From a virus, in the IMG/VR virus record IMGVR_UViG_3300028920_000182, positions 1 through 34,139 of that record: 34,139 nucleotides of DNA, one strand, 5' to 3'. The notes under the pieces are model-generated. The model had not been told where the DNA came from, made no database searches, and worked only from the letters and a program-made list of their open reading frames with translations. This document shows, one piece after another, positions 577 to 34,139 of the stretch; the first letter of the stretch is position 1, and the number at the start of each line of letters is the position of its first letter. The translations under genes were made by a program, and so were the position numbers.

Positions 577-1374
577 CTAAGTAAAATGTTTTATTACTTT
601 TTCTACTTTATGATTTTTAACTATTTTATGTATTTCAGTAAATTCTTTTTCTTCTAAATAATGGACTTTCATATAACTTCTTGGCAAGAAATCTTTTGAC
701 CTCAACACACCTAAATGTATGCCGTGATGTGGTCTGTAATATAATTCATTCCCGTCTGTTATTTCTTTTTCCAATCCATTAAATCCTAAACCTATTCTTA
801 TTAATTCGTAAAGTATATGTTCGTTTCTTATATTTTCTATTTTTGGCAATTCAATTAAATATAATAAATTGGTTTCAATAGCTCTGTTAATTACTTTGTC
901 CATTTTTTCAAAATATTCCTTACATTTGATAAAATGAAGTCCTGTCATCTGTTTTCCATTTGGTCTTATTCCATTCGAGAATGGAAGTCCAATGTTATCA
1001 CAATGCTTTAAATGGCTTTCAGCAATGATTTCTTTTTCTTTATACATTAAAAAATCAATATCGCCTATATATGCAAAATCAAATCCTGTAAAATGTTCTT
1101 TTGGAAGTAAAAATCTTGTGGTCTTTTTAAATTGACTTTCAATTATTGGCATTTCCTTTTTATAGTTTATCAAACTAAAATTTTCAACAATTTTAAAATT
1201 TCTATTTACTAAAATATTCAATGCTTCTTTTACTCGTTTTGGAACTTTTTTCTCTGTGAAAATCTTAACAAAAGCATTAGGTTGTGTTTCCAATACTGAA
1301 TAGATATAATATGGAATATCTTCATAATATATATCATCTCCAAAAACATAAGTTGTAAATAATATCTTATACAT
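577..1374 (-). CDS. GT-A-fold glycosyltransferase-like protein
   Basis: The 265-residue protein looks like a nucleotide-diphospho-sugar transferase of the GT-A fold. The N-terminus (MYKILFTTYVFGDD) resembles the first Rossmann strand, and FAYIGDIDFLM near residue 105 carries a DxD motif (DID) of the kind that binds the metal and sugar nucleotide. A late His/Tyr-rich stretch (YYRPHHGIHLGVLR, about residues 216-229) could be acceptor-site sequence. Its ATG overlaps the end of the 813-residue glycosyltransferase by 8 bases, so the two are translationally coupled and probably act on the same glycan. Substrate and sugar cannot be told from sequence. Confidence 0.7.
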   Translation of the reverse strand: MYKILFTTYVFGDDIYYEDIPYYIYSVLETQPNAFVKIFTEKKVPKRVKEALNILVNRNFKIVENFSLINYKKEMPIIESQFKKTTRFLLPKEHFTGFDFAYIGDIDFLMYKEKEIIAESHLKHCDNIGLPFSNGIRPNGKQMTGLHFIKCKEYFEKMDKVINRAIETNLLYLIELPKIENIRNEHILYELIRIGLGFNGLEKEITDGNELYYRPHHGIHLGVLRSKDFLPRSYMKVHYLEEKEFTEIHKIVKNHKVEKVIKHFT

Positions 1375-3808
1375 ATAGCCAAAAATTAGTTACTTTATTC
1401 ATATAATCAAAAACCTCATCTGCTATAATATTGCAGTCTTCATCTCTTTTTTTATATTCTAAATTTATTGCTTTCACAATATCTTCAATAGTTTTATATT
1501 TAATTGTGTTTGGTAGTGAGTTTGGATTGTGAATTACTCTACGCCCCATAAGTCCCATTTCTATTATCGTATTACTGAGCCCATCTTTTGGGGTTAATCT
1601 TAATCCAACAAAACACTTCTTATAGAACTCTTGTATTTCTTCTTGTGAATATTGACCATTTGTGGTTCTAATAATTTCAAATCTTGTTCTTTTTTGTATT
1701 TCAGTGAGTAGTTCTTCGCCATACTTAACACCTTTGCCATAAAAATAAATACATTCTGCGTCTTTTTTAGAATATACATTCTTAATTAATGGTGCTGGAC
1801 ATATAGGTATGTATTCGCTCTCTAACCCATACGTTAATAAACGTTCTTTTACATTTGAAGATATGGCTATAATACGATGCTTAATCAAGTCATCAGTATA
1901 TTGCTTATAGCAACGCCCAAAATAATCGACATCACTCCCAGCAAATAATATTACGGCTTTCCCCTTGTGATTCTTTACACGTTCGTAATCCTCAGCTCTG
2001 TAAAACCCAAAAAATAAAGTCGCTTTATTTTCTTTTTGATAACTCTTTAATTTAAATTTATCTTTCATCCTTTTTTGAAATCCTAAAAGAGTTACACTTG
2101 TCGCTATTTGGCTTACTCTTTGTATCTTATCGTCTATGTTATTCAATACAAAATCAAATCCTGTATATTTATCAGCCCATTCTTTATTTATTTGTCCAAT
2201 TTTGATTAATTCTTTTTTAGATAGTTTTAATAACTCTTGTAGTTTTTCTTTGGCATTGGCTTCATTTACTAAAATGACTGGTGCTTTTGGTAGTTTTTTA
2301 TTTCCAACTAAATTGCCACTTGCTAAAACAACTGCTCCTAATTTCATTGCTTCCAATCCACTCTTGCCAATACCTCCTGAATATCCTTCTATTTTCATTT
2401 GCTCTGCTCTTGACTTGTTTATTATCTGGTCAATAAATATCATTGCCTCTGCTTTTTTCTCAACACATTTATCCCACGCCAAACCGCTTAATACATCTAA
2501 TTTAATATTCAACTCTTTGCATAATTTTCTAATTATAGAAGTTCCTTTTTCATCTGTATCTACTTTCAGCCCTGCGGAGTGGCATACCTTAATTTCTTTT
2601 TTAGTTTCCATTTCATGCACTGGCAAATATTGATAATATAAATCATATTCTTTTATGAAGTCAGCTTTAAAATCTAAACAATCAGGCATAAATAAATACT
2701 TAACATCTTTGCACTTTTTAAGTTCGGTGTTAATTCTGTCATTATTTAAATATCTATCTTTAAAATACCAGTGGTCTGTAATTAAAAATGTTACTTTGTA
2801 ATCCGCTAATTTCTTTTTAATCTTGTCTAAAATCGGAAGCAAGTATTGAACACCCTTTGCTCCAAATAATAGTAGTTCTTTTGCATTTTTTAAATAGTCA
2901 AGTGTTTCTTCTTTATTATCTACGTAAGTAATAAAGTCATAAAACATTTTATCAAAATCCTCACGCCTACGATTATACATAATTGTCTTTGCATTCATAT
3001 AATTGGCAATAAATGAAACACCTGCATACGAGCTGTCTAAGCTCCAAATGACACGCCCATTATTGTATCCTTTTATTTTTTTATCAAAAATTTCTGGTTC
3101 TTCTTTTGTTTCTACAATTACTAATTTTTCTTCTGTTGGCAAAATTGATTTCACTGCATTAAAAGGTAATTTGTTTCCAATAACACTCTCAACACCCTCG
3201 TGTATTAATAGACTTGGAAATATGTTTTGCGTGTGTCCCCCAGCGTGCATATACCTTTCTGACATATAATAACCTACACCGCTTCCATTTTTGAAGTCAA
3301 AATCAGAAGGAATAGGTTTAACTTCCCACTCCATACGTTCAAAAAACGCTCTATTGCATACAAAGTTACAATCAATTTTATTCAAATGATGTAGTTTATA
3401 CCGCCCAAAGTCCATATTTGGAGCCGTTTTGTAATACATTAATCGGTGTGCCTCAACGCAAAATGTATTTAATACTTCAATTTTGTTGCTTGTGGCTAAT
3501 ATTATACTTGTTAAATTCCAATAATCAGCCGTTGGGATTGTATCATCATTAAGAAAATGCACCAAATCAAATGTTTTTTCTTTTAATATTTGCCAAATAT
3601 CGTTATATAAAGCCCACAATAACTGCTTGCCGTGTGGTTTTGAATAGTTATACCAACTGAATTTATAGTCTTGTAAATGTTCTTTGCATTTGCTGTAATC
3701 AGAACCGCACCCGTCTTGGAATATTAAAACCTCGCAATCCTTTGGAATAGTCTTTAATACTTTTAAAAGTAATTCGGGACGCTTATATGTCGGAATGCAT
3801 ACTATCAT
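1367..3808 (-). CDS. Multidomain glycosyltransferase (GT2 plus two GT-B-like parts)
   Basis: This 813-residue protein begins with a family 2-like GT-A domain (MIVCIPTYKRPELLLKVL at residues 1-18; NDD metal-site motif near residue 88). The central part (about 245-540) looks GT-B-like, with GGIGKSGLEAMKLGAVVLASG resembling the nucleotide-sugar site of GT4-type enzymes. The C-terminal third (about 590-813) has a second such motif, LTPKDGLSNTIIEMGLMGRRVI. Three transferase-like units in one chain suggest assembly of a short glycan. No signal peptide or membrane segment is obvious, so it should be cytoplasmic. A promoter within the end of the tape measure gene drives it. GT2 is confident; the two GT-B calls rest on motifs. 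Confidence 0.8.
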   Translation of the reverse strand: MIVCIPTYKRPELLLKVLKTIPKDCEVLIFQDGCGSDYSKCKEHLQDYKFSWYNYSKPHGKQLLWALYNDIWQILKEKTFDLVHFLNDDTIPTADYWNLTSIILATSNKIEVLNTFCVEAHRLMYYKTAPNMDFGRYKLHHLNKIDCNFVCNRAFFERMEWEVKPIPSDFDFKNGSGVGYYMSERYMHAGGHTQNIFPSLLIHEGVESVIGNKLPFNAVKSILPTEEKLVIVETKEEPEIFDKKIKGYNNGRVIWSLDSSYAGVSFIANYMNAKTIMYNRRREDFDKMFYDFITYVDNKEETLDYLKNAKELLLFGAKGVQYLLPILDKIKKKLADYKVTFLITDHWYFKDRYLNNDRINTELKKCKDVKYLFMPDCLDFKADFIKEYDLYYQYLPVHEMETKKEIKVCHSAGLKVDTDEKGTSIIRKLCKELNIKLDVLSGLAWDKCVEKKAEAMIFIDQIINKSRAEQMKIEGYSGGIGKSGLEAMKLGAVVLASGNLVGNKKLPKAPVILVNEANAKEKLQELLKLSKKELIKIGQINKEWADKYTGFDFVLNNIDDKIQRVSQIATSVTLLGFQKRMKDKFKLKSYQKENKATLFFGFYRAEDYERVKNHKGKAVILFAGSDVDYFGRCYKQYTDDLIKHRIIAISSNVKERLLTYGLESEYIPICPAPLIKNVYSKKDAECIYFYGKGVKYGEELLTEIQKRTRFEIIRTTNGQYSQEEIQEFYKKCFVGLRLTPKDGLSNTIIEMGLMGRRVIHNPNSLPNTIKYKTIEDIVKAINLEYKKRDEDCNIIADEVFDYMNKVTNFWLYV

Positions 3809-13497: not shown

Positions 13498-13528
13498 CAA
13501 AGATAATCATTTTTAATTAAATAACAAA
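13498..13528 (-). promoter_or_regulatory. Promoter of the terminase/tail operon
   Basis: The minus strand reads TTTG, exactly 19 bases, TATCTTTG: a perfect match to the Bacteroidota housekeeping consensus. The ATG of terS lies seven bases downstream of the -7 box, so the transcript should start at or just before the ATG. It is the only clear promoter before the 10-kb block of overlapping packaging and tail genes. Confidence 0.8.
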
Positions 13529-18210: not shown

Positions 18211-18509
18211 AATTTTATTTGTTTAATTAAGTTAATTAATTCATCTTTATTCTCTTCATCTATAAATGGTAGAGAAATAAAATCTACTTTATTAAAATCT
18301 GATTTCTTTATATAGTTAAAAAAACAACTCCAACTACAAAAATCAACATTAATAGATTTTTTATTAGTTTTTTTGTAATAAATTGTTGCTTCTAATTTTT
18401 TTAGCCTTGTAAATTCTTTTTGGCATAAATCACAACCATAAACTTCATTCTCTACAACTCTTTTTTGTTTTACCAAAACTTCCTTATAAACTGCTTTTTT
18501 TATTATCAT
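18207..18509 (-). CDS. Putative zinc-binding protein
   Basis: The 100-residue protein has CDLC at residues 26-29 and C58/C62 in DFCSWSC, a spacing suited to a treble-clef zinc finger with SWSCFF resembling MYM/TRASH-type or HNH-adjacent knuckles. Flanking sequence is Lys-rich. Its final residues KQIKL and stop are encoded within the leader motif of the next gene, so that the leader doubles as coding sequence. Function unknown. Confidence 0.65.
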   Translation of the reverse strand: MIIKKAVYKEVLVKQKRVVENEVYGCDLCQKEFTRLKKLEATIYYKKTNKKSINVDFCSWSCFFNYIKKSDFNKVDFISLPFIDEENKDELINLIKQIKL

Positions 18510-19462: not shown

Positions 19463-19466
19463 AATT

Positions 19467-19613
19467 TTATTTGTTTAATCTTTTTTCTAATTCATTTAAT
19501 AATTTTCTTGCCTTAGCACAATTATCAGATTCATCTCCGTGAAGTGTTTGCTCCATATTAGATAATATTTCATCTATTTCTTCTAATCTTGCTATAATTT
19601 CTATTGTTTCCAT
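19467..19613 (-). CDS. Small coiled-coil protein (48 residues)
   Basis: The ATG at 19613 has the leader AACAAATAAAATA. The product begins METIEIIARLEEIDEILSNM and ends KLLNELEKRLNK, an acidic helical hairpin with one Cys. It stops four bases before the exonuclease start region and follows the 64-residue gene by four bases, fitting the operon. No family recognised; too short for routine ORF lists. Confidence 0.6.
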   Translation of the reverse strand: METIEIIARLEEIDEILSNMEQTLHGDESDNCAKARKLLNELEKRLNK

Positions 19614-19816: not shown

Positions 19817-20134
19817 TTATTTTGTTAATATTAATACTAAAATTGCCACAAAGATAATAAAAAAAAATATTATCCATCTAACTAATTTTCTAAATTTCTT
19901 GTAATATATTTGTTCTTGTTGAAAATATTCTTTTTTTGAATTTTCTGTTTCTGCAAGATTTTGTAAATTAAGATAATCATTCTTAAATATTTGTTTTTGT
20001 TCAGCACAATAAGTATTTTCTTTTTTTAATTCTTTAATAGAAAAAACTTTATCTTTACAATATACATACGTCAAATTTTGTGCTTTTAAATTAGAACAAT
20101 TTTGACATTGTTCGTAAATATTATTTGTTTTCAT
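19817..20134 (-). CDS. Membrane-anchored zinc-finger-like protein
   Basis: The 105-residue protein begins with CQNCSNLK (Cys10, Cys13), with C26 and C43 further on that could complete a metal site. It ends with a hydrophobic span, residues 87-103 (WIIFFFIIFVAILVLIL), giving a C-tail-anchored topology with a charged coiled-coil middle. It is the first gene after an operator/promoter module and probably leads an operon extending to the lysozyme-like gene. Function unknown. Confidence 0.65.
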   Translation of the reverse strand: MKTNNIYEQCQNCSNLKAQNLTYVYCKDKVFSIKELKKENTYCAEQKQIFKNDYLNLQNLAETENSKKEYFQQEQIYYKKFRKLVRWIIFFFIIFVAILVLILTK

Positions 20135-20152: not shown

Positions 20153-20232
20153 TTTACAAAAATAGTTATTTATTTAATTCATTTTATTTTATAATCTTGT
20201 AATATTACATAATTTTAATTGATATTTGTCAA
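20153..20232 (-). promoter_or_regulatory. Early promoter/operator module, copy 1
   Basis: On the minus strand, operator TTGACAAATATCAA (20219-20232) is followed after nine bases by TGTAAT (20204-20209), and about 50 bases further by the -7 box TATTTTTG (20157-20164). The operator overlaps the last codon of the gene upstream. No good -33 element is visible, so an activator may be needed. It would drive genes from 20134 leftwards. Confidence 0.6.
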
Positions 20233-20573
20233 TGTTTTGTATTTTGCATTTCATTTTTTAAATAACTTATCTGGGTCCTGATAATATCTAATATTGAATA
20301 ACCAGCTTTAATTACATATCTTAATTTATACAAGAGAGGATAAGCCACTTCTGCTGAATTAACTGCTCTATTTACATTCAGTTTTTTTTCTGTTGTCAAA
20401 ACATAAACATACTTTTCAAAGTTATTGTGCTGTCTTGTTTTCTCCTCTGATAGCCAATACAATATTGCTGATATTTGTTGTGCCAAATATACTAATGTCG
20501 TTCCGTCGGACAATTGTGTCTCCTGATACTCTTCAATTAAATCATTTAATTTTGATATGTTTTTTTCTATCAT
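20229..20573 (-). CDS. Hypothetical helical protein of the replication block
   Basis: The 114-residue protein is helical (residues 1-20, 26-50, 62-110) with no cysteine. It follows the VRR-NUC gene by 13 bases. It is similar in size and style to small unnamed proteins near replication genes in Bacteroidota phages. Its final codons overlap the operator of the next promoter. Confidence 0.6.
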   Translation of the reverse strand: MIEKNISKLNDLIEEYQETQLSDGTTLVYLAQQISAILYWLSEEKTRQHNNFEKYVYVLTTEKKLNVNRAVNSAEVAYPLLYKLRYVIKAGYSILDIIRTQISYLKNEMQNTKH

Positions 20574-20586
20574 ACTAATATTTTTT

Positions 20587-20937
20587 TTAATAAAACAAAT
20601 ATTTTTTAATTATTTTTTCAAAGTCATCAAACGAATAACAAACTTCACACATATACCCATTTTGTCTAAACAATTCCATTTGATATATTTGGTTTTCTGT
20701 TGGTTTGTTCTTGCCAAATTTCATTTCAATAAATAAACCTGAATATGTTTTTGTTGGTTTTGCAAACATTAAATCAGGAACTCCACTTAAAACCCCTTCT
20801 CTTTTTAGCTTAATAGCAACTTGCAAATTTCTTTTTCCTCCATTTGGTATTGCAAATAGTAAATTTGAATATTGAGGATATTGATAACGAAACCATTTTA
20901 TACATTCACATTGTAGTTTATGTTCTAAGTTTTTCAT
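20587..20937 (-). CDS. VRR-NUC domain nuclease
   Basis: The 116-residue protein is a complete VRR-NUC domain. It shows the motif order of the family: HKLQCECIKWFRYQYP, IPNGGKRN, LKREGVLSGVPDLMFAKP (catalytic Asp after the Val-Pro), then LFIEMKFGKNKPTENQ (Glu-x-Lys) and a final helix. Such minimal phage nucleases are thought to resolve branched DNA. It sits three bases downstream of the DnaB gene. Confident at family level. Confidence 0.85.
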   Translation of the reverse strand: MKNLEHKLQCECIKWFRYQYPQYSNLLFAIPNGGKRNLQVAIKLKREGVLSGVPDLMFAKPTKTYSGLFIEMKFGKNKPTENQIYQMELFRQNGYMCEVCYSFDDFEKIIKKYLFY

Positions 20938-20940
20938 ATT

Positions 20941-22254
20941 CTAAAAATTTAAATTATTGCCAAAATTGGCTATTTGATAATCGTGTTCCATTTTTACAAA
21001 TCCTGTTGAACCTTCTCTATATTTTGCTATATCTATCTCTATTTCTTTATTATTAAAATCTTTGGAATAATAAGCATCTCTATATAAAAATATAATAATA
21101 TCAGCATCTTGCTCTAACTCCCCACTATCTCGCAAATCACTCAATATTGGTCGCTTATTTCCTCTTGTTTCAGGTGCTCTGCTTAACTGATGTAATGCTA
21201 TTATTGGAATATCACACCTCTTAGCAAGTCCTTTTAAGCTATGACTTATGTTTCCAAGTTCTATATTTCTACTATCTTTATTTGGAAGTTTTATTAATCC
21301 TAAATAATCTATTATTACATAATCAGGTTTTTGCATTATTGTAAGTGTTTCAATTTCTGCAATACTTAACCCTGATTTATCTTCAATTTTTAAATTCCAA
21401 TTTGATATTTCTCTAATTACTTTTAATAATTTTTCTTCTTCTCCTTTATATAATTGACCTGTTCTGTATCTTTTATTGTCAATTTCTGCTTCTGCAATTA
21501 TTATTCTTGATGTCAATTTGTTTTTTGTCATCTCTAAACTTATAATAAGTCCTTTTTTATTATCTTTACTATAATTCCTTGCTATTTGTAAAGCAAATGA
21601 TGTCTTACCCATTGATGGCCTCGCCGCTAATAATATCAAATCTCCTCTCTCTATTATTAAATTGTCTGACAAATCACTCATTTTTAAATCATATTCGTTT
21701 TTTATTTCTTGCTTTTTCTTTTTATAGTATGTTTCTACATTTAACAATAATAAATCTGTAAATGATAACGACTTTGTATTTATTCCTAAATATTTGGAAG
21801 TAATATTATCAATTTCATTTTTCATAAATTCAACTTCTTCTGTAATATTAATTTCTGCTGATAATCTTTGCTCCTGTAATTTATTAAATTCGTTTAATTT
21901 TCTTTTAAGATATTTTTCTAATATTAATTTTGCATAATCTCTAATAGCAGTAGATGTTAATATTCCTGTTGTTAATTTATTTACAAATAAAACACCACCT
22001 GCTTTTTCTAATAAATTTTTATTTCTTAAATGTTCTACAAGCGTTAATATATCAATGTGTAATTTATTGTTAAACATATAAGATATTTCAGTGTATAATA
22101 TTTGATGTTTTTCTTCATAAAACATTTCAGTAGTTAATATATCATTTACGTTAATAAAGCTGTTCTGGTCTGATATTATCATTCCAATTAATTTATTTTC
22201 TATATTACTTGTATCTATTTGATAAATTTCATTATCTAATGTTATTGTTTCCAT
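20941..22254 (-). CDS. dnaB: Replicative DNA helicase (DnaB-like)
   Basis: The 437-residue protein has an N-terminal DnaB-N helical domain (residues ~1-110) and the RecA-like helicase core. Walker A is ARPSMGKTSF (211-220); Walker B is the DYVIIDYLGLI strand; LHQLSRAPETR and LSDLRDSGELEQDADIIIFLYRD are the H3/H4 motifs with the arginine finger region. It should unwind DNA at phage forks as a hexamer. The upstream DUF1376-type protein may load it. Length is typical of the family. Confidence 0.93.
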   Translation of the reverse strand: METITLDNEIYQIDTSNIENKLIGMIISDQNSFINVNDILTTEMFYEEKHQILYTEISYMFNNKLHIDILTLVEHLRNKNLLEKAGGVLFVNKLTTGILTSTAIRDYAKLILEKYLKRKLNEFNKLQEQRLSAEINITEEVEFMKNEIDNITSKYLGINTKSLSFTDLLLLNVETYYKKKKQEIKNEYDLKMSDLSDNLIIERGDLILLAARPSMGKTSFALQIARNYSKDNKKGLIISLEMTKNKLTSRIIIAEAEIDNKRYRTGQLYKGEEEKLLKVIREISNWNLKIEDKSGLSIAEIETLTIMQKPDYVIIDYLGLIKLPNKDSRNIELGNISHSLKGLAKRCDIPIIALHQLSRAPETRGNKRPILSDLRDSGELEQDADIIIFLYRDAYYSKDFNNKEIEIDIAKYREGSTGFVKMEHDYQIANFGNNLNF

Positions 22255-22256
22255 AA

Positions 22257-22991
22257 TTAATTTAATTGTCTGTTACGAATTGGTTCGTTATTTTGCTTAT
22301 CTGCTATTATTTCGTCATTCCAGCTTTTGTTGTTTAAAAAGGTCTCTGGATTTTTCCTAAATTTTTTATCAGGTTGAGATAATTTATATTTAGGTATGTA
22401 TTTTATTATATCTTCTCTTTCAATATCTTTTAGTTTTTTCCATTTATTAATTAGTTTTTCTTTGTTACCTATTTTTTTATCATATAAATTCCAAAAAATA
22501 TCAAACTCTATATTTATATTTTTATTTATAATTACATCTTCATTTTCATATTCATTTTCATATTCAGAGTTTGCTTTAATATTTGCTTGAGCAAAATTTT
22601 TATTTTTATTCATTGTTTTTTTACCACCTTTTGAACCTGATATTGCTCTTGTATTACTTAGTAAATTGTCCTTAACCATACGTTTTTGAATTAACAAATC
22701 TTCTTCAATTATTAACACATTTTCATCTATTAACTCTGTTAAACACCTTTCAATTAATTGCAATTCATAAGGTAAATGTTTAGCAAGTTTTATAGCAAAA
22801 TTTTTTATTTGCTTATCAGTTTGCTTATCTTTTTGCTTAAGCAAAATTGTTCCATATTGTTCTGATTTATGCATTATACACATTAAACGAATATATACAC
22901 CAGTAGCTTCTGCTGAACATTCAATTAATTTCTCATCCGTTAGAAAATCCTGAACATATAAAGGAATGTATGGTTGATTTCTTAACGCCAT
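22257..22991 (-). CDS. DUF1376-type replication protein, possible helicase loader
   Basis: The 244-residue protein opens PYIPLYVQDFLTDEKLIECSAEATGVYIRLM, a DUF1376-like winged-helix start found in phage replication initiators. A Glu/Asn-rich linker (~residues 140-165) joins it to a C-terminal helical region with FDIFWNLYDKKIGNKEKLINKWKKL and FRKNPETFLNNKSWNDEI, recalling DnaD/DnaT-type domains. Adjacent to dnaB by two bases, it probably loads or recruits the helicase. It overlaps the GIY-YIG-like gene by 10 bases. Confidence 0.75.
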   Translation of the reverse strand: MALRNQPYIPLYVQDFLTDEKLIECSAEATGVYIRLMCIMHKSEQYGTILLKQKDKQTDKQIKNFAIKLAKHLPYELQLIERCLTELIDENVLIIEEDLLIQKRMVKDNLLSNTRAISGSKGGKKTMNKNKNFAQANIKANSEYENEYENEDVIINKNINIEFDIFWNLYDKKIGNKEKLINKWKKLKDIEREDIIKYIPKYKLSQPDKKFRKNPETFLNNKSWNDEIIADKQNNEPIRNRQLN

Positions 22992-23329
22992 GATATTAAC
23001 ATATTTTCGGTTATATAATCAAATTCATTTATTAAATTATTTAAAAGTGTTTTATATATATTTATATTTATATTTTTAAAACACTCTGTATATCCTCCAA
23101 ATTTTATTTTAGGAATATATTGTTTAAAATTTGTTTGTAATATTTTTTCTGTATTTAAACAATTTTCCCAAGTCATTCCATACACCATAAGAACTATCTC
23201 AACTGAATATCCAAATTTCATTATTTGATAAAATCTGCAATATTTATGAACAGATGTTCCTATTTTAAAAAATTCTTCATTTTCATTAAATACCCTTATT
23301 AAATAAAGGTTCATTTTTTTGTAATTCAT
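22982..23329 (-). CDS. GIY-YIG superfamily nuclease-like protein
   Basis: The 115-residue protein (start at Met1 or Met6) has the T5orf172/MUG113 pattern: LYLIRVFNENEEFFKIGTS (the Y-x-I...KIG pair), an Arg (CRFYQIM), and a conserved Glu in NTEKILQTNFKQYIPK, followed by GGYTECF. Many such proteins are homing or repair nucleases; short ones like this may be accessory. It lies at the head of the replication operon and overlaps the DUF1376 gene. Confidence 0.7.
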   Translation of the reverse strand: MNYKKMNLYLIRVFNENEEFFKIGTSVHKYCRFYQIMKFGYSVEIVLMVYGMTWENCLNTEKILQTNFKQYIPKIKFGGYTECFKNININIYKTLLNNLINEFDYITENMLISWR

Positions 23330-23444
23330 GTCCGATGTCTCCTATAAATCCAAAGAGAAAAGGGAGCTGAGACAGGCGGACAACCTTGAAAGCCCCCCAA
23401 TCAGTTTGGAATATTTTTAATAAATAATTTTTAATTTTAATCAT
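23286..23444 (-). CDS. Leader ORF overlapping the GIY-YIG gene
   Basis: From the ATG at 23444 the frame gives 52 residues, MIKIKNYLLKIFQTDWGAF, then a hydrophobic LPFLFGFIGDIGHEL stretch. It is the first frame after the promoter at 23466-23496 and overlaps the next gene by 44 bases. The ATG lies at the foot of a 9-bp hairpin, so translation could be controlled. The middle of the frame is unusually GC-rich for this genome, so conservation of a leader RNA may explain it instead of coding. Confidence 0.4.
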   Translation of the reverse strand: MIKIKNYLLKIFQTDWGAFKVVRLSQLPFLFGFIGDIGHELQKNEPLFNKGI

Positions 23445-23452
23445 TGTCCGCC
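23375..23452 (-). promoter_or_regulatory. Long-range hairpin in the replication-operon leader
   Basis: GGCGGACAA (minus strand, 23444-23452) pairs perfectly with TTGTCCGCC (23375-23383), closing a 60-base loop that holds the GC-rich CCAAACTGATTGGGGGG stretch. The stem starts within about 15 bases of the expected transcription start and includes the first base of the ATG of the 52-residue ORF. It may be an RNA switch or a protein-binding leader. Confidence 0.5.
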
Positions 23453-23465
23453 ATTTAATATTTTG

Positions 23466-23496
23466 CAAATATACACATTATTTTTTAATAAACAAG
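23466..23496 (-). promoter_or_regulatory. Promoter of the replication operon
   Basis: The minus strand reads CTTG, 19 bases, TATATTTG, a good match to the Bacteroidota consensus. It lies in a non-coding stretch just before the hairpin leader and should drive the GIY-YIG-like gene, the DUF1376 gene, dnaB, the VRR-NUC gene and the 114-residue gene. Confidence 0.7.
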
Positions 23497-23505
23497 AAAA
23501 AGTTA

Positions 23506-23598
23506 TTAACATTTTTTAAAAACTTTGTTAATAATTCCATCAAACCACAAAAGCAGTTCAAATATCATTTTTGATAAATATAATTTAATTGTTTTCAT
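23506..23598 (-). CDS. Possible micro-protein (30 residues)
   Basis: From the ATG at 23598 (leader AACAAAATAACTT, as ahead of other genes here) the frame encodes MKTIKLYLSKMIFELLLWFD and a short basic end with Cys. It would be an amphipathic or membrane-active peptide. It fills the otherwise empty space between the 82-residue gene and the replication promoter. Only the leader supports it. Confidence 0.4.
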   Translation of the reverse strand: MKTIKLYLSKMIFELLLWFDGIINKVFKKC

Positions 23599-23609
23599 AA
23601 GTTATTTTG

Positions 23610-23858
23610 TTAATAATTTTTAATTTTATTTTCAATTTCTTTAATTTCATCTTCTAATAATGATTTAATGAATTTATGTATTAAAGTATATATTTTATTA
23701 TCTCTGGAATTTTGACGAAAATAAAGTTCTTCTCTATTATGTTCGCTAATTAATATTATTCCATCTCTTTTTATTTTATTAAATTTTTCTAATTCAATTT
23801 TTTTTGCACGTAATAAATTCATTAAGTCGCATATTTCTTGTGCTTCATGTTTTTTCAT
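23610..23858 (-). CDS. Hypothetical helical protein
   Basis: The 82-residue Lys/Glu-rich protein is helical except for a short strand (GIILISEHNREELYFRQ). The C-terminal helix has heptad character (LLEDEIKEIENKIKN). It overlaps the 115-residue gene upstream by ATGA. Not recognised. Confidence 0.6.
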   Translation of the reverse strand: MKKHEAQEICDLMNLLRAKKIELEKFNKIKRDGIILISEHNREELYFRQNSRDNKIYTLIHKFIKSLLEDEIKEIENKIKNY

Positions 23859-24202
23859 AATTTTACTTTTTTATTGGTTTTTAAATTTTTATATCTCACT
23901 CCTTTTATATACGAATTATAATTGATGTCTTGCAGTTCTTCAAATGGAGTTGAAAGTAACATTTCATTCTCAATACTATCCTCTTGCCATTGTATAATCA
24001 GACCTTTTTTCGCTTTGGAGTTTAAATCTAAGATAATATCGGATAGATTAAAGTAATATTGCTCGTTAAAACAAGCAATTTCCCCGACCTTATCGCCTAA
24101 CCAAAAATAATCTTCAATTCCTTGCTTATTGCAAAACAACTTTACGTATTTATTGCATATTGTTTCATATTCTGTGTTTAGTTTTTTTAATTCTTTTTTC
24201 AT
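23855..24202 (-). CDS. Hypothetical protein
   Basis: The 115-residue protein has an N-terminal helix (KKELKKLNTEYETICNKYVKLFC) and a middle with DYFWLGDKVGEIACFNEQYYFNLSDIILDLNSKA, a pattern I associate with unnamed proteins of Bacteroidota phages. GLIIQWQEDSIE could be a binding loop. Preceded by AAACAAATAAAATTATG. Function unknown. Confidence 0.6.
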   Translation of the reverse strand: MKKELKKLNTEYETICNKYVKLFCNKQGIEDYFWLGDKVGEIACFNEQYYFNLSDIILDLNSKAKKGLIIQWQEDSIENEMLLSTPFEELQDINYNSYIKGVRYKNLKTNKKVKL

Positions 24203-24237
24203 AATTTTATTTGTTTTTGCTAAATTACTAATTTTTA

Positions 24238-24444
24238 TTATTCATTAGTTACTTTTGAAGTTGTATTATTACACGTTTTGAGTTGATTTTTATCAATGTT
24301 TTTAATTTCTTCCAGTCGCTCCTGTAACTCCTCAATCAACTTGACACTCTTTTTTGTGTTCTTTGTTGATAGTTTTATTATCATTAATTCGTAATATTCT
24401 TTTAACTCTGTATTTGTTATTTCTTCCTGTTTTTCTGTTATCAT
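24238..24444 (-). CDS. Hypothetical coiled-coil protein
   Basis: The 68-residue protein is a single charged helix or coiled coil (residues 5-50) with a Thr/Asn-rich tail. It follows the 91-residue zinc-ribbon gene by 11 bases. A TTGATTTTTATCAA sequence within the gene resembles the operator of the early modules but lacks their promoter part. Function unknown. Confidence 0.55.
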   Translation of the reverse strand: MITEKQEEITNTELKEYYELMIIKLSTKNTKKSVKLIEELQERLEEIKNIDKNQLKTCNNTTSKVTNE

Positions 24445-24455
24445 TTTGTTGTTTA

Positions 24456-24731
24456 TTAAGTTATTTTAAATTCATCATACTCAAATTGACACTCTTCACA
24501 ATGCCAAATATTCAATCCTTTGTCAAATTTCACATCTTTATTTCCGCAGAAATAACATTTTTTAGATGCTTCCATTTTTTCTTTAATCAGTTTGATATAT
24601 TCGTTTTGCACCTTTTCTCCTGTATAAAAGAATTCAGTTATTATTGTAAATATGTAGCGTTCCTTTGCAGTTGTGAAACAATCTCGGTTGTTTATACAGA
24701 AGTCTAATATGTTTTTAGTTACTTTTTTCAT
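24456..24731 (-). CDS. Zinc-ribbon protein
   Basis: The 91-residue protein has helices at the N-terminus and a C-terminal zinc ribbon: CYFCGNKDVKFD (Cys59/Cys62) and WHCEECQFEYDEF (Cys77/Cys80). It lies three bases after the methyltransferase gene and is probably coupled to it. It could be a DNA-binding partner, but nothing proves that. Confidence 0.7.
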   Translation of the reverse strand: MKKVTKNILDFCINNRDCFTTAKERYIFTIITEFFYTGEKVQNEYIKLIKEKMEASKKCYFCGNKDVKFDKGLNIWHCEECQFEYDEFKIT

Positions 24732-24734
24732 AAG

Positions 24735-25391
24735 TTAAAAATTTAAAGTTTGTTGTGAAATATTATTTTCAATCCTGTTTATTGCTTTTTCAATGTATTC
24801 CTTGTCTATTTCTATTGCTGTTAAGTGTAAGTTCATTTTGTCAAGTTCGTTCGCTTTATGAACTGCTAATGCTATTGAGCCACTTCCAAAATGAGTGTCT
24901 AATATCTTTGCGTTTTCAATTGTATACCTGTTTAAAATCCAACTATATAATTCACGTGGTTTTTGTGTAGGGTGTATTTTGTTTTTATCTTCTACATTTA
25001 TATGTAGTTTATTGTAAATTTTCGCAGGTACTTTGCAATTAGTCCAAGCCATTTCACACATAGCAAAACTAAAATCTTCTGCATTACTTTTTTGCCATAT
25101 TATAAAATACTCGCTTGTAGGTAATTTAAAATTATTTGCACCCCAAATTATTTGGTTTTTGCTTATTCTAAAAAGTTGCTCAAAATATTCAGTAGTTGGC
25201 TTTTCATTGTTCCATTGTCCATTTTCGCTTCCGTGTTTATTTACATGGCTTCCACCTTTTTTAAATCTTTCTAATCCATACGGCGGGTCGCAAATACAAA
25301 TATCGTAAAACTTATCAGGCGTTTGTTTCATCAATTCCATACAATCGCCTAAATACAAGTCTAAAAAGTCCTGTGTATATACTTTTTTCAT
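24735..25391 (-). CDS. DNA methyltransferase (beta-class layout)
   Basis: The 218-residue protein carries the catalytic DPPYG (residues 35-39, N6-adenine or N4-cytosine type) before the SAM-binding DTHFGSGSIALA (165-176), the motif order of beta-class enzymes, with HPTQKP at 140-145 between. No restriction gene is adjacent, so it is an orphan methylase that may protect phage DNA or mark it. Its ATG overlaps the stop of the 73-residue gene (ATGA). Target site unknown. Confidence 0.9.
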   Translation of the reverse strand: MKKVYTQDFLDLYLGDCMELMKQTPDKFYDICICDPPYGLERFKKGGSHVNKHGSENGQWNNEKPTTEYFEQLFRISKNQIIWGANNFKLPTSEYFIIWQKSNAEDFSFAMCEMAWTNCKVPAKIYNKLHINVEDKNKIHPTQKPRELYSWILNRYTIENAKILDTHFGSGSIALAVHKANELDKMNLHLTAIEIDKEYIEKAINRIENNISQQTLNF

Positions 25392-25609
25392 AAGTTAATT
25401 ATTATTTGTCGTTCATTTTTTAATCTTGCAGAGCATACTTTATAAGCAACGTGCTTATTCCTTTTGAGCCATTTTTCAGCGTTCTCTTTTGTGAAGTTAG
25501 AGGCGTTAATAACGGCGTTTAATTCATCATAGGTGCAGTCTTGCCGACCTCTACCCATTGACATCAACCTTTGGCGATGTTCTGCTATTTTTTTGAGTAG
25601 TTTATTCAT
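25388..25609 (-). CDS. Small basic protein coupled to the methyltransferase
   Basis: I use the ATG at 25609, which overlaps the TAA of the zinc-ribbon gene upstream; a longer reading to 25669 would lie inside that gene. The 73-residue product has a helix (NKLLKKIAEHRQRL), a Gly-rich turn (MSMGRGRQDC) and TYDELNAVINASNFTKENAEKWLKRNKH, which looks like a helix-turn-helix. It ends within the methyltransferase start. A DNA-binding role is plausible but unproven. Confidence 0.65.
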   Translation of the reverse strand: MNKLLKKIAEHRQRLMSMGRGRQDCTYDELNAVINASNFTKENAEKWLKRNKHVAYKVCSARLKNERQIIINL

Positions 25610-25757
25610 CTCTAAATTCATTTGGCTGGTCTTCCCATTGACACTCTGGACATCCTTCTTCAAATTCAAATACTTCGCCTACATAACCACAAATACTACA
25701 TTTTTTCTCATCGTGCCTTGCTAATTCTCTTTGTAAATCATAATCAAATACTTCCAT
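25602..25757 (-). CDS. Small zinc-ribbon protein (51 residues)
   Basis: The ATG at 25757 follows an A-rich leader, two bases after the 132-residue gene. The product, MEVFDYDLQRELARHDEKK, continues with CSIC (20-23) and CPEC (36-39), a rubredoxin-like zinc ribbon rich in acidic residues. It overlaps the 73-residue gene and would be missed in lists with a 60-residue cut-off. Confidence 0.7.
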   Translation of the reverse strand: MEVFDYDLQRELARHDEKKCSICGYVGEVFEFEEGCPECQWEDQPNEFRDE

Positions 25758-25759
25758 AA

Positions 25760-26158
25760 TTATTTAATTTTTAAATATTGGTTTTTATTAATATCAAAAT
25801 TTTGTTCCTTTTTCCATACGTCGTTCATCTGTTCAAAATGTAAATTACACAACATCATTCCTCCACAATACCAAGCTCCAACTTCTTTACTGAAATAAAC
25901 TTTTTCTTCTTTGTGTTGTGTAGCATCTCTAACACAAGTATAAATCAATGTGTCGCCGTCTTTTATTTCATTTCCATCTACATCTCTAAAACCTGTTATT
26001 TCTCTTACATTTCTGTATTCTTTTAACTTTACTTTGTAATTATTATAAATTTTATCTACTACATTGTGTTGTAATAACTTTAAACGTATTTCACGCTCCG
26101 AAAGTTCTTTGTCTAATATATTTGCTTCAACCAGCAAATCGTATAAATATTTATTCAT
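25760..26158 (-). CDS. YopX-like hypothetical protein
   Basis: The 132-residue protein has a helical first third and a strand-rich part containing TGFRDVDGNEIKDGDTLIYT, like the 'F-x-D-x-x-G-x-E-I-x-x-G-D' turn of YopX-type phage proteins, followed by strands (EEKVYFSKEVGAWYCGG). YopX proteins have no firmly known role. It overlaps the exonuclease gene by 8 bases. Confidence 0.6.
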   Translation of the reverse strand: MNKYLYDLLVEANILDKELSEREIRLKLLQHNVVDKIYNNYKVKLKEYRNVREITGFRDVDGNEIKDGDTLIYTCVRDATQHKEEKVYFSKEVGAWYCGGMMLCNLHFEQMNDVWKKEQNFDINKNQYLKIK

Positions 26159-27053
26159 TTTTATTTATTTTTAAATTATTAATTGGTTCTATCGTATTCA
26201 TAAATTCTCTGCACAATTTTAAACATTCGTTTCGTTGTTCTATTCTTATTTTGTCAAATGGATGATTAACTAAATGAACTCTTTCCTCTTTTGGTATTTC
26301 AACAAAATCTTTAAACCATTCTATATGCACAATAGCACTCTGATTACAAAAATTCTCTAATCCTTCTCTTGTAAAGATATGATTACACACTAATTCTTTC
26401 ACTTCTTCTCTTTTATCCTCTCTTACATCTCCTTCTATGTTTAGTATATTGGAATAAAAATCAGTTCTTTTTAATTCTCGTTCTACCAAATCAAAAGGCG
26501 TATCTACTAAAACAAAAGCTAATAAGCTATGTTTAACGTTCCATAAGTCCATATAACAATCTAATTGCCTGAAATAATATTCGTGTTTCTTTTCCAATAG
26601 GTGAGCATTGAAAGTGTTAAAATCAAAAGTGCTTTTAATGTCTATAATAATTTCAGCTTTAATATCTCTTTTGCCTTTTACCCATTCATTTTCTTTTGTC
26701 TCTGGGTCATAAGTCAATAAACTTCCTAAAACTTCACTTAATAAATCTCTACCTTCTTTTTCAACTCTTAATCCTTTTTCAAAATATTTATTTCGTAAAG
26801 TGGTTTTTCTTCCATATTTTTCATTAAACACTATTTGAGTGCATAAGTTTTTAGCAGTTTCTGTTAATTTGTAAATCTTACTTTCATTCAATTTATTCTC
26901 CAAAGAGTGCCAATCCTTCTCCTGTTTGTCGGTTAATTTTTCTTTATTCCTGTATGCTTCAAGCGTTTCTGTTTGTCTTTCTGTTAAAGGTTTTGGGACA
27001 CTTACTAAATCTCCCTGATAATGACTCCTAAATTTATATTTATCAAATTTCAT
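26151..27053 (-). CDS. PD-(D/E)XK exonuclease, recombination type
   Basis: The 300-residue protein has a YqaJ/RecB-like nuclease layout: a helical Glu motif (GLRVEKEGRDLLSEVLG, near residue 95), a KGKRDIKAE strand with the catalytic Asp, IIIDIKST with the D-x-K pair, and the RQLDCYMDLWNVKHSLLAFVLVD helix-strand with the conserved Gln. It probably chews 5' strands to leave single strands for the RecT-like protein encoded two genes upstream. Family is well supported; substrate is inferred. Confidence 0.75.
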   Translation of the reverse strand: MKFDKYKFRSHYQGDLVSVPKPLTERQTETLEAYRNKEKLTDKQEKDWHSLENKLNESKIYKLTETAKNLCTQIVFNEKYGRKTTLRNKYFEKGLRVEKEGRDLLSEVLGSLLTYDPETKENEWVKGKRDIKAEIIIDIKSTFDFNTFNAHLLEKKHEYYFRQLDCYMDLWNVKHSLLAFVLVDTPFDLVERELKRTDFYSNILNIEGDVREDKREEVKELVCNHIFTREGLENFCNQSAIVHIEWFKDFVEIPKEERVHLVNHPFDKIRIEQRNECLKLCREFMNTIEPINNLKINKNE

Positions 27054-27090
27054 AATTATATTTTATTTAGTTATTAATTCCATTACTATT

Positions 27091-27471
27091 CTAACGTTTG
27101 CCAAAATAATATTTATCTTTAAATTTATAAAATTCTTCTTTTACAGATTTAATATGTTCTATATTATGCATTATATCTCTATGATTTTTTATAGAATCAT
27201 GATAAAGCTCTAAAAAATCTTCAAAAGTTATTTTATGTTCATAAAAAATAAACTGTTCATAATATTCGTCATTAGGATGTGTATATCTTTTGTTTGTTTC
27301 TACAAAACTTATTAACTTTGAACATAATTTAACTTTTACTCCCACATAAGTTGTTTTCTTAGACAATTCATATTCAGATTCTGCAATTAGTTTTTCATAT
27401 TCTCTAATTACCATCTTTGGATTTTTTCTAGCAGTGCTTCTGCTAAAATTTACATATTTAAAATTTTTCAT
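27091..27471 (-). CDS. Hypothetical protein between RecT and exonuclease
   Basis: The 126-residue basic, helical protein has no recognised motif. It separates the RecT-like gene (nine bases upstream) from the exonuclease gene (37 bases downstream), so it may belong to the recombination set. The common AATAAAATTATG leader precedes the start. A role as an accessory factor is a guess. Confidence 0.6.
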   Translation of the reverse strand: MKNFKYVNFSRSTARKNPKMVIREYEKLIAESEYELSKKTTYVGVKVKLCSKLISFVETNKRYTHPNDEYYEQFIFYEHKITFEDFLELYHDSIKNHRDIMHNIEHIKSVKEEFYKFKDKYYFGKR

Positions 27472-27480
27472 AATTTTATT

Positions 27481-28254
27481 TTATTTAGTTTCTAATTCTG
27501 TTCTTTTTAATTTAAATAAATCTTGGCAATCGTTTTGTAAATTTTCGCCTAATGTTTTCCATAAATTCATTAATTCTACTCCTGTTTTAATAGATTTTAA
27601 TTTTACTTTTACATCTTCTATTGTTAATTTAGGTTTTTCCAAAACGTTGTCCATTCCTTCATCATCAACTTCTTGTATATCAGCAAACTCATCCTCAAAA
27701 TGAAATTTTAGGTTTTTACGAAGCAAAGTTTTTTTATACAATTCCTGCCACCAGTCATTATAAAGATACTTCATATTTGAAAGTTCTTTATGTTTGTCTA
27801 ATTCTTCCTTTGCCATTGTGGTTTGAAATTCTCCTCTTCCTGCTATTCTTACTATACAATATCCGCCAATCAGGGTTTCTAATTTCTTACCAAATGGATT
27901 AGCTATTGTATGATTATATATTACTTTGCCGTTTTCTTTTTTTATTTCAAAATCATCTCCACTAAATACTAAATCTAAATCTATAATAGCATTTGGATAA
28001 TTTTTCAAAAGTCGGTTTTTATATACAATATAATCAAATGTTAAACCTCTTTGTGTGAGAGTGGCGTGTTTGCCGTCTAATGTAACACCCAATCTTTTTA
28101 AATCAGACACCACTTTATCAAAATAAGCTACGTCTTTACTCCATAGCCATTTGTTTATATATTCTCGTTGTTTGTTTTGCTTAGAAGCAATTTCAATGAT
28201 TACATTAATAAAATCTTTTCCATATTTGCTAATAATTTTTTTTAAGTTTTCCAT
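27481..28254 (-). CDS. recT: RecT-family single-strand annealing protein
   Basis: The 257-residue protein has the core of the RecT family: LVFSGDDFEIKKENGKVIYNHTIANPFG (about residues 95-122), the GGYCIVRIAGRGEFQTTMAKEELDKHKELS stretch and the Trp-containing DWWQELYKKTLL helix, then an acidic C-terminus. It should bind single-stranded DNA and anneal complementary strands, working with the PD-(D/E)XK exonuclease. It is the second gene of the operon led by the 74-residue protein. Confidence 0.85.
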   Translation of the reverse strand: MENLKKIISKYGKDFINVIIEIASKQNKQREYINKWLWSKDVAYFDKVVSDLKRLGVTLDGKHATLTQRGLTFDYIVYKNRLLKNYPNAIIDLDLVFSGDDFEIKKENGKVIYNHTIANPFGKKLETLIGGYCIVRIAGRGEFQTTMAKEELDKHKELSNMKYLYNDWWQELYKKTLLRKNLKFHFEDEFADIQEVDDEGMDNVLEKPKLTIEDVKVKLKSIKTGVELMNLWKTLGENLQNDCQDLFKLKRTELETK

Positions 28255-28260
28255 AATTTT

Positions 28261-28485
28261 TTATTTTTTAATTTCTAATTTAAATAATATATCATATTTT
28301 TTCAATGGACACCATTCTGGTATCACATATCCTTTTTCTTCAACAAAAGGTATCATATCTTTTTTATTCATATCTCTTTTTTCTAAAATAGATTTTAATT
28401 CGCAAAGATTTATGTTAGTAATTTCTGTGTGAAAATGACAAAAATTACACACTCCATCATTTATTATTATTTTTTTAGTTTCCAT
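28261..28485 (-). CDS. Hypothetical Cys/His protein leading the RecT operon
   Basis: The 74-residue protein has VCNFCHFH (Cys13, Cys16, His18) and a later PEWCPLKK (Cys59), a pattern that could hold a metal ion. It is the first gene after promoter/operator module copy 2. The linkage to recT suggests an early function. Not recognised otherwise. Confidence 0.6.
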   Translation of the reverse strand: METKKIIINDGVCNFCHFHTEITNINLCELKSILEKRDMNKKDMIPFVEEKGYVIPEWCPLKKYDILFKLEIKK

Positions 28486-28503
28486 AATTTTAATTGTTTT
28501 TTT

Positions 28504-28583
28504 ATTACAAAATTAATACTTTTTTTGCTTGTTTTGAACTTTTTATGTTTTATTATTACAATAAAATAGTTGATATTTATCAA
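28504..28583 (-). promoter_or_regulatory. Early promoter/operator module, copy 2
   Basis: On the minus strand, TTGATAAATATCAA (28570-28583, perfect 6-2-6 palindrome) precedes TGTAAT (28555-28560) by nine bases. The -7 box TAATTTTG is at 28508-28515. Spacing between the conserved parts equals that of copies 1 and 3 to within one base. It drives the RecT/exonuclease operon. Confidence 0.7.
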
Positions 28584-28596
28584 TCGTTAATTAATT

Positions 28597-29178
28597 TTAA
28601 TTTATTTTATAATTGCATTTTGTGGATATAAATATTTTATTTATCTTTGCAAAAATATTAGTTATAACTGCCTTTATTTTGAAAGGCAAAAATAACATTT
28701 TAGGAGGAGCTTCTCGTTCCTCCATTTTTTTAAAATCACTCCATTTTGCAAATCCATATTTAAAATCACTGGTTGTTTCTTTTTTGTTTAAAGTCCAAAA
28801 ACAACTACTGCAATTTCCCCAGTGGTTAGAATATCTTATAACACCTTCTTTTGTGTAAAAGTATTTTGAAGATATTTCGTCATAATCTATAACTCTAAAT
28901 CCTTCATTGCCATTACGTCCTTGAAAACGTTTTAAAACAGTGTATGTTTGCAGTGTATCTGCGTCAGTTATTTTAGTAATATCATCTCCATTGCTATAAT
29001 TATCATCTAAAATATAATGTTCTTGGAATATTTGCCAATCCCAAATTATAAAAGAGCCGTAAGATATAAAATCAGGTTCTCTTGTTTCTTTAAAGTTTTT
29101 AATTTCTTTGAAATTAACTTTTGTTTTAATAAAAAAAATATCTTTATTTATTTTGCTGTTTATTTTTATTGTTTTCAT
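28597..29178 (-). CDS. Hypothetical early protein with C-terminal basic tail
   Basis: The 193-residue protein has a middle part with VIRYSNHWGNCSSCFWTLNKKE and YGFAKWSDFKKM, a combination with conserved-looking Trp, His and Cys residues that I associate with unnamed early genes of Bacteroidota phages. The C-terminus is hydrophobic and basic (FKIKAVITNIFAKINKIFIS). A possible metal site is H118/C121/C124. Not assignable to a named family. It follows the 79-residue gene by nine bases, in the operon of module copy 3. Confidence 0.6.
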   Translation of the reverse strand: MKTIKINSKINKDIFFIKTKVNFKEIKNFKETREPDFISYGSFIIWDWQIFQEHYILDDNYSNGDDITKITDADTLQTYTVLKRFQGRNGNEGFRVIDYDEISSKYFYTKEGVIRYSNHWGNCSSCFWTLNKKETTSDFKYGFAKWSDFKKMEEREAPPKMLFLPFKIKAVITNIFAKINKIFISTKCNYKIN

Positions 29179-29187
29179 ATTTTTATT

Positions 29188-29427
29188 TTAAATTGTTAAT
29201 TTAAAAATATCATTTGTTGTTTTTTCAATAATTAAATCTAAAAACATCTGTTGTCCAGCAGTTGCACCATCAGAATTACAAGGTGCTTTTTCCCAATCTT
29301 TTTCTGCTTCGCAAAGAATTTGTTTTACTTCTTCATTATCATTAATATTAAGTTTTTCAGCAATTTCTAATGCTGATGTTGAATTTGAAAAAAATTCAAT
29401 AATTAAATTTTCAATTTTTGTTTTCAT
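29188..29427 (-). CDS. Hypothetical small acidic protein
   Basis: The 79-residue acidic protein is helical, with ALEIAEKLNINDNEEVKQIL recalling a small HTH-like helix pair and a NSDGATAGQQMFLDLIIEK stretch. Not recognised. It is the first gene behind promoter/operator module copy 3, so it may be one of the earliest expressed. Confidence 0.6.
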   Translation of the reverse strand: MKTKIENLIIEFFSNSTSALEIAEKLNINDNEEVKQILCEAEKDWEKAPCNSDGATAGQQMFLDLIIEKTTNDIFKLTI

Positions 29428-29450
29428 AATTTTGTTTTTTAATTGTTTAT

Positions 29451-29531
29451 ATTACAAAGATACGACACTTTTTGATACATTTTACATTTTTACACCTCTA
29501 TTATTACAACTAAATGATTGATATTTATCAA
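29451..29531 (-). promoter_or_regulatory. Early promoter/operator module, copy 3
   Basis: TTGATAAATATCAA (29518-29531), nine bases, TGTAAT (29503-29508), then about 40 bases to the -7 box TATCTTTG (29455-29462) and a short A-rich leader to the ATG at 29427. A 34-base stretch covering operator and TGTAAT matches copy 2 at about 30 positions. No -33 element is evident. Confidence 0.75.
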
Positions 29532-33353: not shown

Positions 33354-33383
33354 CAAAGTTAATTAATTTTATTTACAACCAAC
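33354..33383 (-). promoter_or_regulatory. Promoter of the lysis module
   Basis: The minus strand reads GTTG, 18 bases, TAACTTTG, then a 24-base A/T-rich leader to the ATG at 33329. The -33 part lies in the last codons of the fibre gene, where GTTG is repeated at three spacings. It would make the lysis module independent of the fibre transcript. Confidence 0.55.
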
Positions 33384-34139
33384 CAACTGGAATGTCCCCG
33401 TAATTGTCTAAACTTGTTAAACTATTTCCTGCTCCATTCCAACAATCAGTTGTTGTTGGAGTTCCTGTGCCATAAGTGCAATCCCATAATGCTGGTGCTG
33501 TCCCTTGTGTTCCAGTGAATGAAGTTCTTAAAAAGCAATTTGCAAAATTTACACTTTGATTTAAAAATCTTGTTGCTTCATCGCCTGTTGAATAGAATAT
33601 CTCACTATTTTGTTGAAGTTTAACACAAAATCTAAATGTATAATTGAAATTTGTACATTTTGTATTATATTTGAATAAATTTGCAGGAACTGTTGCTAAT
33701 AGCGAGCATACATTAAATGTTTGTGCAAATGTCGTAACCTCTGTATTATATCTGAATATATCTGTCGGCAATGATGCTAATTTTGAACAAGTTGTAAATC
33801 CCATATAAAATGACGTAACCGCTGTATTATATCTGAATATATCTGTCGGCAATGATACTATATTTGTACAACTTTGAAAAATATTATCAAATTTACTAAC
33901 ACTAACATTATATTTAAAAATATCAGAAGTAACTGATGTTAATCCAGTACAACTTTTAAATGTTGAAGTAAAATCTGTTACTGCTGTATTGTATCTAAAT
34001 AAATCAGCATCTAATGTCGAAAGTATTATTCCAGTACAACCCTCAAATGTAGATTTGAATTTTGTTACATTAACATTATATTTAAAAATGTTTTTATGTA
34101 TTGTTGATATTCCTGTGCAATTAAGAAATGTTAAAGTAA
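33373..34139 (-). CDS. Tail-fibre-like protein with BspA/DUF285 repeats (C-terminal part)
   Basis: The frame is open to the right edge, so the N-terminus is missing; 254 residues are visible. Six or more repeats of ~27 residues follow the pattern F-K/R-Y-N-x-x-V-T-x-F-x(3)-F-x(2)-C-x(2)-L-x(3)-PTDI, typical of BspA-like surface-protein repeats. The last ~75 residues form a distinct Gly/Thr/Trp-rich tip (WDCTYGTG, PVGWL at the end). Such repeats usually mediate binding, so this is probably the receptor-binding fibre. Two repeat units are nearly identical in DNA sequence. Confidence 0.75.
   Translation of the reverse strand, partial: TLTFLNCTGISTIHKNIFKYNVNVTKFKSTFEGCTGIILSTLDADLFRYNTAVTDFTSTFKSCTGLTSVTSDIFKYNVSVSKFDNIFQSCTNIVSLPTDIFRYNTAVTSFYMGFTTCSKLASLPTDIFRYNTEVTTFAQTFNVCSLLATVPANLFKYNTKCTNFNYTFRFCVKLQQNSEIFYSTGDEATRFLNQSVNFANCFLRTSFTGTQGTAPALWDCTYGTGTPTTTDCWNGAGNSLTSLDNYGDIPVGWL
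33732..33855. repeat. Near-identical 43-base direct repeat in the fibre gene
   Basis: The stretches 33732-33774 and 33813-33855 differ at one base and are 81 bases (27 codons) apart, matching the protein repeat length. Recombination between them would add or remove one repeat in frame. Confidence 0.85.

Follow-up and report, generated by a model that had tools for sequence, protein, structure and literature searches.

A tandem-dyad candidate promoter module recurs in front of genes in a Bacteroidota-type phage and in six other phage contigs

The late promoters served by P2 Ogr, P4 delta and 186 B combine a one-sided core box with a dyad placed a set distance upstream and a polymerase-recruiting activator in a multi-copy regulon, with Ogr sites reading TGT-N12-ACA and centred near -55. 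Operators of the 434/lambda type are, as is generally known, dyads of 14 bp whose neighbours are separated by about 8 bp. The FNR box of promoters activated by the Crp/Fnr family (class I/III) has the consensus TTGATnnnnATCAA (PMC1274295), and in Bacteroides the Crp/Fnr-type master activator BT4338 recognises the consensus wwwTATGTTnTAnAACATAwww (PMC6989115). Core promoters read by Bacteroidota sigma-ABfr have the form TTTG / TAnnTTTG; among 241 probable promoters of F. johnsoniae the -7 motif TAHHTTTG is strong and the -33 motif "much less evident", and the -7 box spans T-12 to G-5 relative to the transcription start (PMC6847099).

The window analysed here is the full length of an IMG/VR record (34,139 nt, linear, 27.6% G+C), with nearly all of its genes on the minus strand. 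It is a phage of Bacteroidota-type bacteria: the closest relatives of its terminase belong to Flavobacterium and Bacteroides phages, those of its exonuclease to Riemerella, Leeuwenhoekiella and Flavobacterium phages, and the TAnnTTTG boxes between its genes are of the Bacteroidota type. The contig is incomplete, since both of its ends fall within genes. Single-sequence scans of IMG/VR with RecT, DnaB and terminase gave no near relatives of the window, and an alignment of the exonuclease led to L011–L090, of which those checked (G001–G006) lack the module described below.

Four copies of this module, built on the dyad TTGAYAAAWATCAA, are present in the window, all on the minus strand and starting at 29531, 28583, 24296 and 20232. 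The original prediction had described three copies, all of which lie where it placed them (TTGATAAATATCAA twice and TTGACAAATATCAA, minus strand), but it missed the fourth at 24283–24296. TGTAAT starts exactly nine nucleotides past the dyad in four of four copies, as had been claimed, and the -7 box starts at +54/+55 from the dyad in all four; TAnnTTTG is exact in the three copies for which it had been predicted, and is replaced by TAATTTAG at 24296. The elements are as follows.

29518..29531, minus strand: module A dyad 1, TTGATAAATATCAA; centre predicted at about -74.5
29496..29509, minus strand: module A second element, TTGTAATAATAGAG, a degenerate TTGTA-N4-TACAA
29455..29462, minus strand: module A -7 box, TATCTTTG
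28570..28583, minus strand: module B dyad 1, TTGATAAATATCAA; centre predicted at about -73.5
28548..28561, minus strand: module B second element, TTGTAATAATAAAA
28508..28515, minus strand: module B -7 box, TAATTTTG
24283..24296, minus strand: module C dyad 1, TTGATAAAAATCAA; overlaps the 3' end of ORF 24238–24444; centre predicted at about -74.5
24261..24274, minus strand: module C second element, GTGTAATAATACAA
24220..24227, minus strand: module C -7 box, TAATTTAG, a variant also found in the G008 modules
20219..20232, minus strand: module D dyad 1, TTGACAAATATCAA; centre predicted at about -73.5
20197..20210, minus strand: module D second element, ATGTAATATTACAA, containing the perfect dyad TGTAATATTACA
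20157..20164, minus strand: module D -7 box, TATTTTTG

The second element, too, has the character of a dyad (TGTA-N4-TACA), and the perfect 12-mer of this form occurs only at 20198–20209 and 24262–24273 in the 34 kb, both times within a module. The centres of the first and second dyads are 22 bp apart, which puts TTG and CAA half-sites on the same helix face at intervals of 11 bp; by the F. johnsoniae start-site rule the two centres would lie at about -74 and -52 from the starts, which are predicted to fall near 29450, 28503, 24215 and 20152. TTG and TTTG are absent from the 26 nt 5' of the -7 box in all four modules, in agreement with the earlier statement that -33 elements are missing. The pairing of TGTAAT elements 51–52 bases apart, also proposed earlier, is a coincidence: the downstream TGTAAT arises where TAAT follows the final two bases of the -7 box, and is found only at 28583 and 29531 (two of four copies). 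By eye, ordinary TTG-N19-TAnnTTTG promoters, unlike the four modules, were seen at 13505 (terminase genes) and 23473 (replication genes).

Simulating the window 1000 times under a Markov-1 model gave, per window, an expected 0.021 strict dyads and 0.000 modules, against four actual occurrences of each, and the chance expectation for module copies in the window is below 0.05. Four of the five TTGA-N6-TCAA sites in the window are modules, and a position weight matrix derived from other phages alone ranks the four sites first to fourth in the window. Mean pairwise identity among the four copies is 93% for the dyad, 81% for the second element and 79% for the -7 box, versus 33–58% for flanks and spacers; conservation limited to these three pieces argues against a single recent duplication and implies that the pieces are held by selection. 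The module stands in several copies before genes and is rare elsewhere, as in a phage activator regulon, and there is good support for the idea that the repeated promoter/regulatory modules make up a small regulon.

The genes behind the modules (all minus strand) are listed below.

29188..29427, minus strand: first gene after module A; 79 aa, no assigned function, low-confidence three-helix model
28597..29178, minus strand: second gene after module A; 193 aa, phrog_6629 (unknown function)
26151..28485, minus strand: start of the operon after module B; 74-aa protein, RecT (27481–28254), 126-aa protein, exonuclease (26151–27053)
23855..24202, minus strand: gene after module C; 115 aa, phrog_35741 (unknown)
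19817..20134, minus strand: first gene after module D; 105 aa, no assigned function

Each module thus precedes genes, as predicted, but recombination genes, which had been assigned to the separate operons, stand behind 28583 only, in an operon that runs on towards a methyltransferase; the other three begin with small genes that have no assigned function. Module C leads to two small proteins, and module D to small proteins followed further along by an RNase H/exonuclease-like protein. The replication genes (20941–22991) appear to have the separate ordinary promoter at 23473. The model of the 105-aa product is of low confidence. Immediately 5' of many start codons in the window lies a leader, AAACAAATAAAATTATG (e.g. 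18211–18224, 19463–19476 and 24203–24216), and 15 of 63 window genes have a ATAAAATT or AAAATTATG core before the start, similar to the Kozak-like starts described for Flavobacterium.

The layout recurs in other phage contigs. A first scan of IMG/VR, in which the dyad could be followed by a -7 box anywhere between 40 and 68, yielded two contigs with repeated intergenic copies amid chance matches; both showed the order TTGAYAWRTVTCAW, N8, NNNATAWRTVTCAW, with the -7 box placed at +54 to +56. A second scan used the tandem dyads only, with the -7 box left out of the pattern; among its 28 non-redundant matches a -7 box lay at +53 to +56 in 12 of 19 intergenic cases versus none of nine in coding DNA (Fisher p = 0.003, with some matches coming from related phages). 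The original observation is real and extends further than first described. Altogether 19 modules were found in seven contigs (window, 4; G007, 3; G008, 4; G010, 3; G011, 1; G012, 1; G013, 3), with one to four pattern matches per carrier versus 0.01–0.05 expected. The six other IMG/VR contigs have the dyad TTGAYAWRTVTCAW, a dyad or half-dyad 22 bp further on, the -7 box at +53 to +56, a leader and a start codon. Dyad-to-dyad spacing in the modules is 22 bp, with one case of 21 bp, and the start codon usually lies 18–30 nt past the predicted transcription start. The centre dinucleotide has the same orientation in nearly all copies, and the 19 modules point uniformly towards genes. The second element agrees in position but differs in sequence, being TGTA-N4-TACA in the window versus ATAAATnTCA in the other carriers.

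The carriers, which reach 45% G+C, are fragments with very different gene content. As a single metagenome yielded G007, G008 and G010, which also have genes in common, the number of independent lineages is about four or five. One G013 module stands after a terminase gene, which makes the label "early", previously given to the module, unsafe for the class. The module is absent from 23 named Bacteroidota phages, implying that the factor is not used by all phages of the phylum, and we found no published report of such a module in open-access papers. Strict pattern scans and one loose scan gave chance-like matches within genes; the sole match of the strict pattern in genome_contigs (candidate division SR1) lies within an ORF, and the group L212/L224/L234/L248/L250/L259 was rejected as module carriers because the matching stretch is conserved coding sequence.

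The module most likely represents an activator-dependent class of promoter, and it can be compared with the systems described above. The dyad core is identical to that of Crp/Fnr sites, its position falls in the class I range and its centre is AT-rich: TTGAT-N4-ATCAA is exact at 28583 and 29531, carries C for T in one half-site at 20232, and has exact arms at 24296, and in the 19 modules dyad 1 keeps its helically phased distance of +53 to +56 before the -7 box. The modules differ from Crp/Fnr promoters in having two abutting sites 22 bp apart as standard, a Bacteroidota -7 box and a phage location, and dyad 1 differs from the BT4338 consensus. With sigma-ABfr promoters they have in common the -7 box and its distance to the start codon, although the four window modules lack a -33 element and have the upstream tandem dyads in addition. 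The P2, P4 and 186 late promoters resemble the modules in their one-sided core, fixed-distance upstream dyad and multiple copies, with an activator that is putative in the modules; however, the module dyads read TTGA-N6-TCAA (about -74) and TGTA-N4-TACA (about -52) instead of TGT-N12-ACA, and we identified no zinc-finger Ogr-type gene here. The dyad length and spacing of 434/lambda-type operators are matched, but the half-site differs, the site lies upstream of the core promoter without overlapping it, and no XRE protein was detected.

The genes behind the modules are probably switched on by an activator, which could be a bacterial protein exploited by the phages. Each module would be a promoter that depends on this activator and is recognised by the primary sigma factor of the Bacteroidota host. 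One dimer of a DNA-binding protein would sit on the strong dyad (TTGAYA-N2-TRTCAA, centre at about -74). A second dimer would bind the weaker site, a dyad or half-dyad lying 22 bp further downstream at about -52, two turns away on the same helix face; jointly, the two dimers would recruit RNA polymerase to the TAnnTTTG box without a -33 element. The four window copies would thereby be co-regulated, with the same layout in the six other contigs. The fixed distance to the -7 box, the two-turn site spacing and the uniform orientation argue for an activator acting through RNA polymerase, and we hold action through activation as such to be likely. A factor binding the palindrome, as originally proposed, gains support from the same spacing in other phages, but the reason then offered, the missing -33 element, is weak evidence for activation, since -33 motifs are hardly evident in Flavobacterium promoters generally (PMC6847099). 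Taken whole, the model of a host Crp/Fnr-kind activator on tandem dyads recruiting polymerase to a -7-only promoter is the one we lean towards. A host Crp/Fnr-kind regulator is the most likely candidate because the dyad equals a Crp/Fnr-type box and the diverse carriers have no detectable common regulator gene; host origin, judged by itself, is a tentative assignment.

A search for Crp-type helix-turn-helix (HTH) domains (PF13545, HTH_Crp_2) found none in the window or in any carrier, and the XRE type (PF01381, HTH_3) was likewise missing from the window and not above cut-off in any carrier. All-against-all protein comparison of window and carriers gave no common regulator family, the common genes being generic only (VRR-type nuclease, helicase, primosomal protein, methyltransferase, exonuclease, terminase and tail protein). 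These results favour a host factor without amounting to proof; a phage regulator gene may be missing from the data, since all carriers are fragments. The earlier remark that no regulator is annotated accordingly holds for these two domains in the window, but has to be read against the incomplete contig and the weak HTH-like fold at 29188–29427. Several carriers encode small proteins whose HTH resembles DnaA domain IV (Bac_DnaA_C; e.g. L272 19476–19868 and L286 1422–1889), with members of one family in G007, G008, G010, G011, G012 and G014 and a similar domain in G013; none was found in the window.

A phage-encoded activator is the main rival of a host activator, although we consider it unlikely. 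It might be an unrecognised small protein, such as the 79-aa product of 29188–29427, or be encoded in the missing part of the contig, both ends of which are cut within genes; either possibility would make the module a switch for middle genes of the phage. The model of the 79-aa protein has three short helices in HTH-like order, at low confidence (pLDDT 65), and Foldseek matched nothing meaningful to it. That the second element varies between phages is as expected from co-evolution of regulator and site, and the 23 named phages without the module also suit a phage-specific protein, whereas the missing common regulator family and the HTH_Crp_2 and HTH_3 results speak against a phage-encoded protein. 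The XRE result also counts against a reading that we regard as distinctly improbable, in which the dyads are cooperative repressor operators of 434/lambda type, 14 bp long and 8 bp apart, keeping the operons off until induction or relief in infection. By analogy with what is generally known of cooperative repressor arrays, the 22-bp period and the tandem arrays (three dyads in G008, five in G015) could be taken that way, yet sites that keep a fixed distance from the core promoter, 5' of it at about -80 to -45, suit recruitment better than blocking.

Regular 22-bp spacing of multi-copy dyads, as at G015, would also suit iteron- or centromere-like arrays serving replication, partition or packaging, with promoter proximity incidental; such a role is very improbable, as it leaves the +53 to +56 distance and the uniform orientation in 19 modules without a reason. 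The AT-rich composition of the window, in which single dyads with two or three mismatches are common, might be thought to generate the pattern by chance, a reading to which we give practically no credence: it is refuted by the expectation of 0.000 modules, the recurrence in phages of up to 45% G+C and the contrast between intergenic and coding matches.

Returning to the host Crp/Fnr-kind activator, distantly related Bacteroidota phages could conceivably have converged on tandem Fnr-type boxes (22 bp apart, about -74/-52, with a -7-only core), ceding operon control to a host Crp/Fnr regulator; we put this forward as a speculative and rather doubtful extension. If it were true, infection timing would track the metabolic or redox state of the host, and a host regulator as the factor would connect the expression of phage genes with the physiology of their hosts in a major phylum of bacteria. 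Gene timing in Bacteroidota phages is little known, and a promoter class found across several lineages offers a direct handle in the form of one dyad for pull-down, one testable spacing and one predicted operon list.

Further features were seen in individual contigs. In a 117-kb phage contig, five TTGAYA-type dyads stand in tandem in an intergenic stretch, spaced about 22 bp apart (L306 7359–7460; G015 45358–45459), possibly an operator or activator array for the same factor. Most modules of G007, G008 and G010 (L270, L272 and L299) have an extra palindrome, GTATATAC, between the second dyad and the -7 box, which the window modules lack. In the window, genes for 265-aa and 813-aa glycosyltransferase-like proteins (577–3808) adjoin the tail genes, the PHROG match of the larger being weak, and 33373–34139 consists of 81-bp tandem repeats encoding a surface-type repeat protein with "FKYNT" motifs that is broken off at the contig end.
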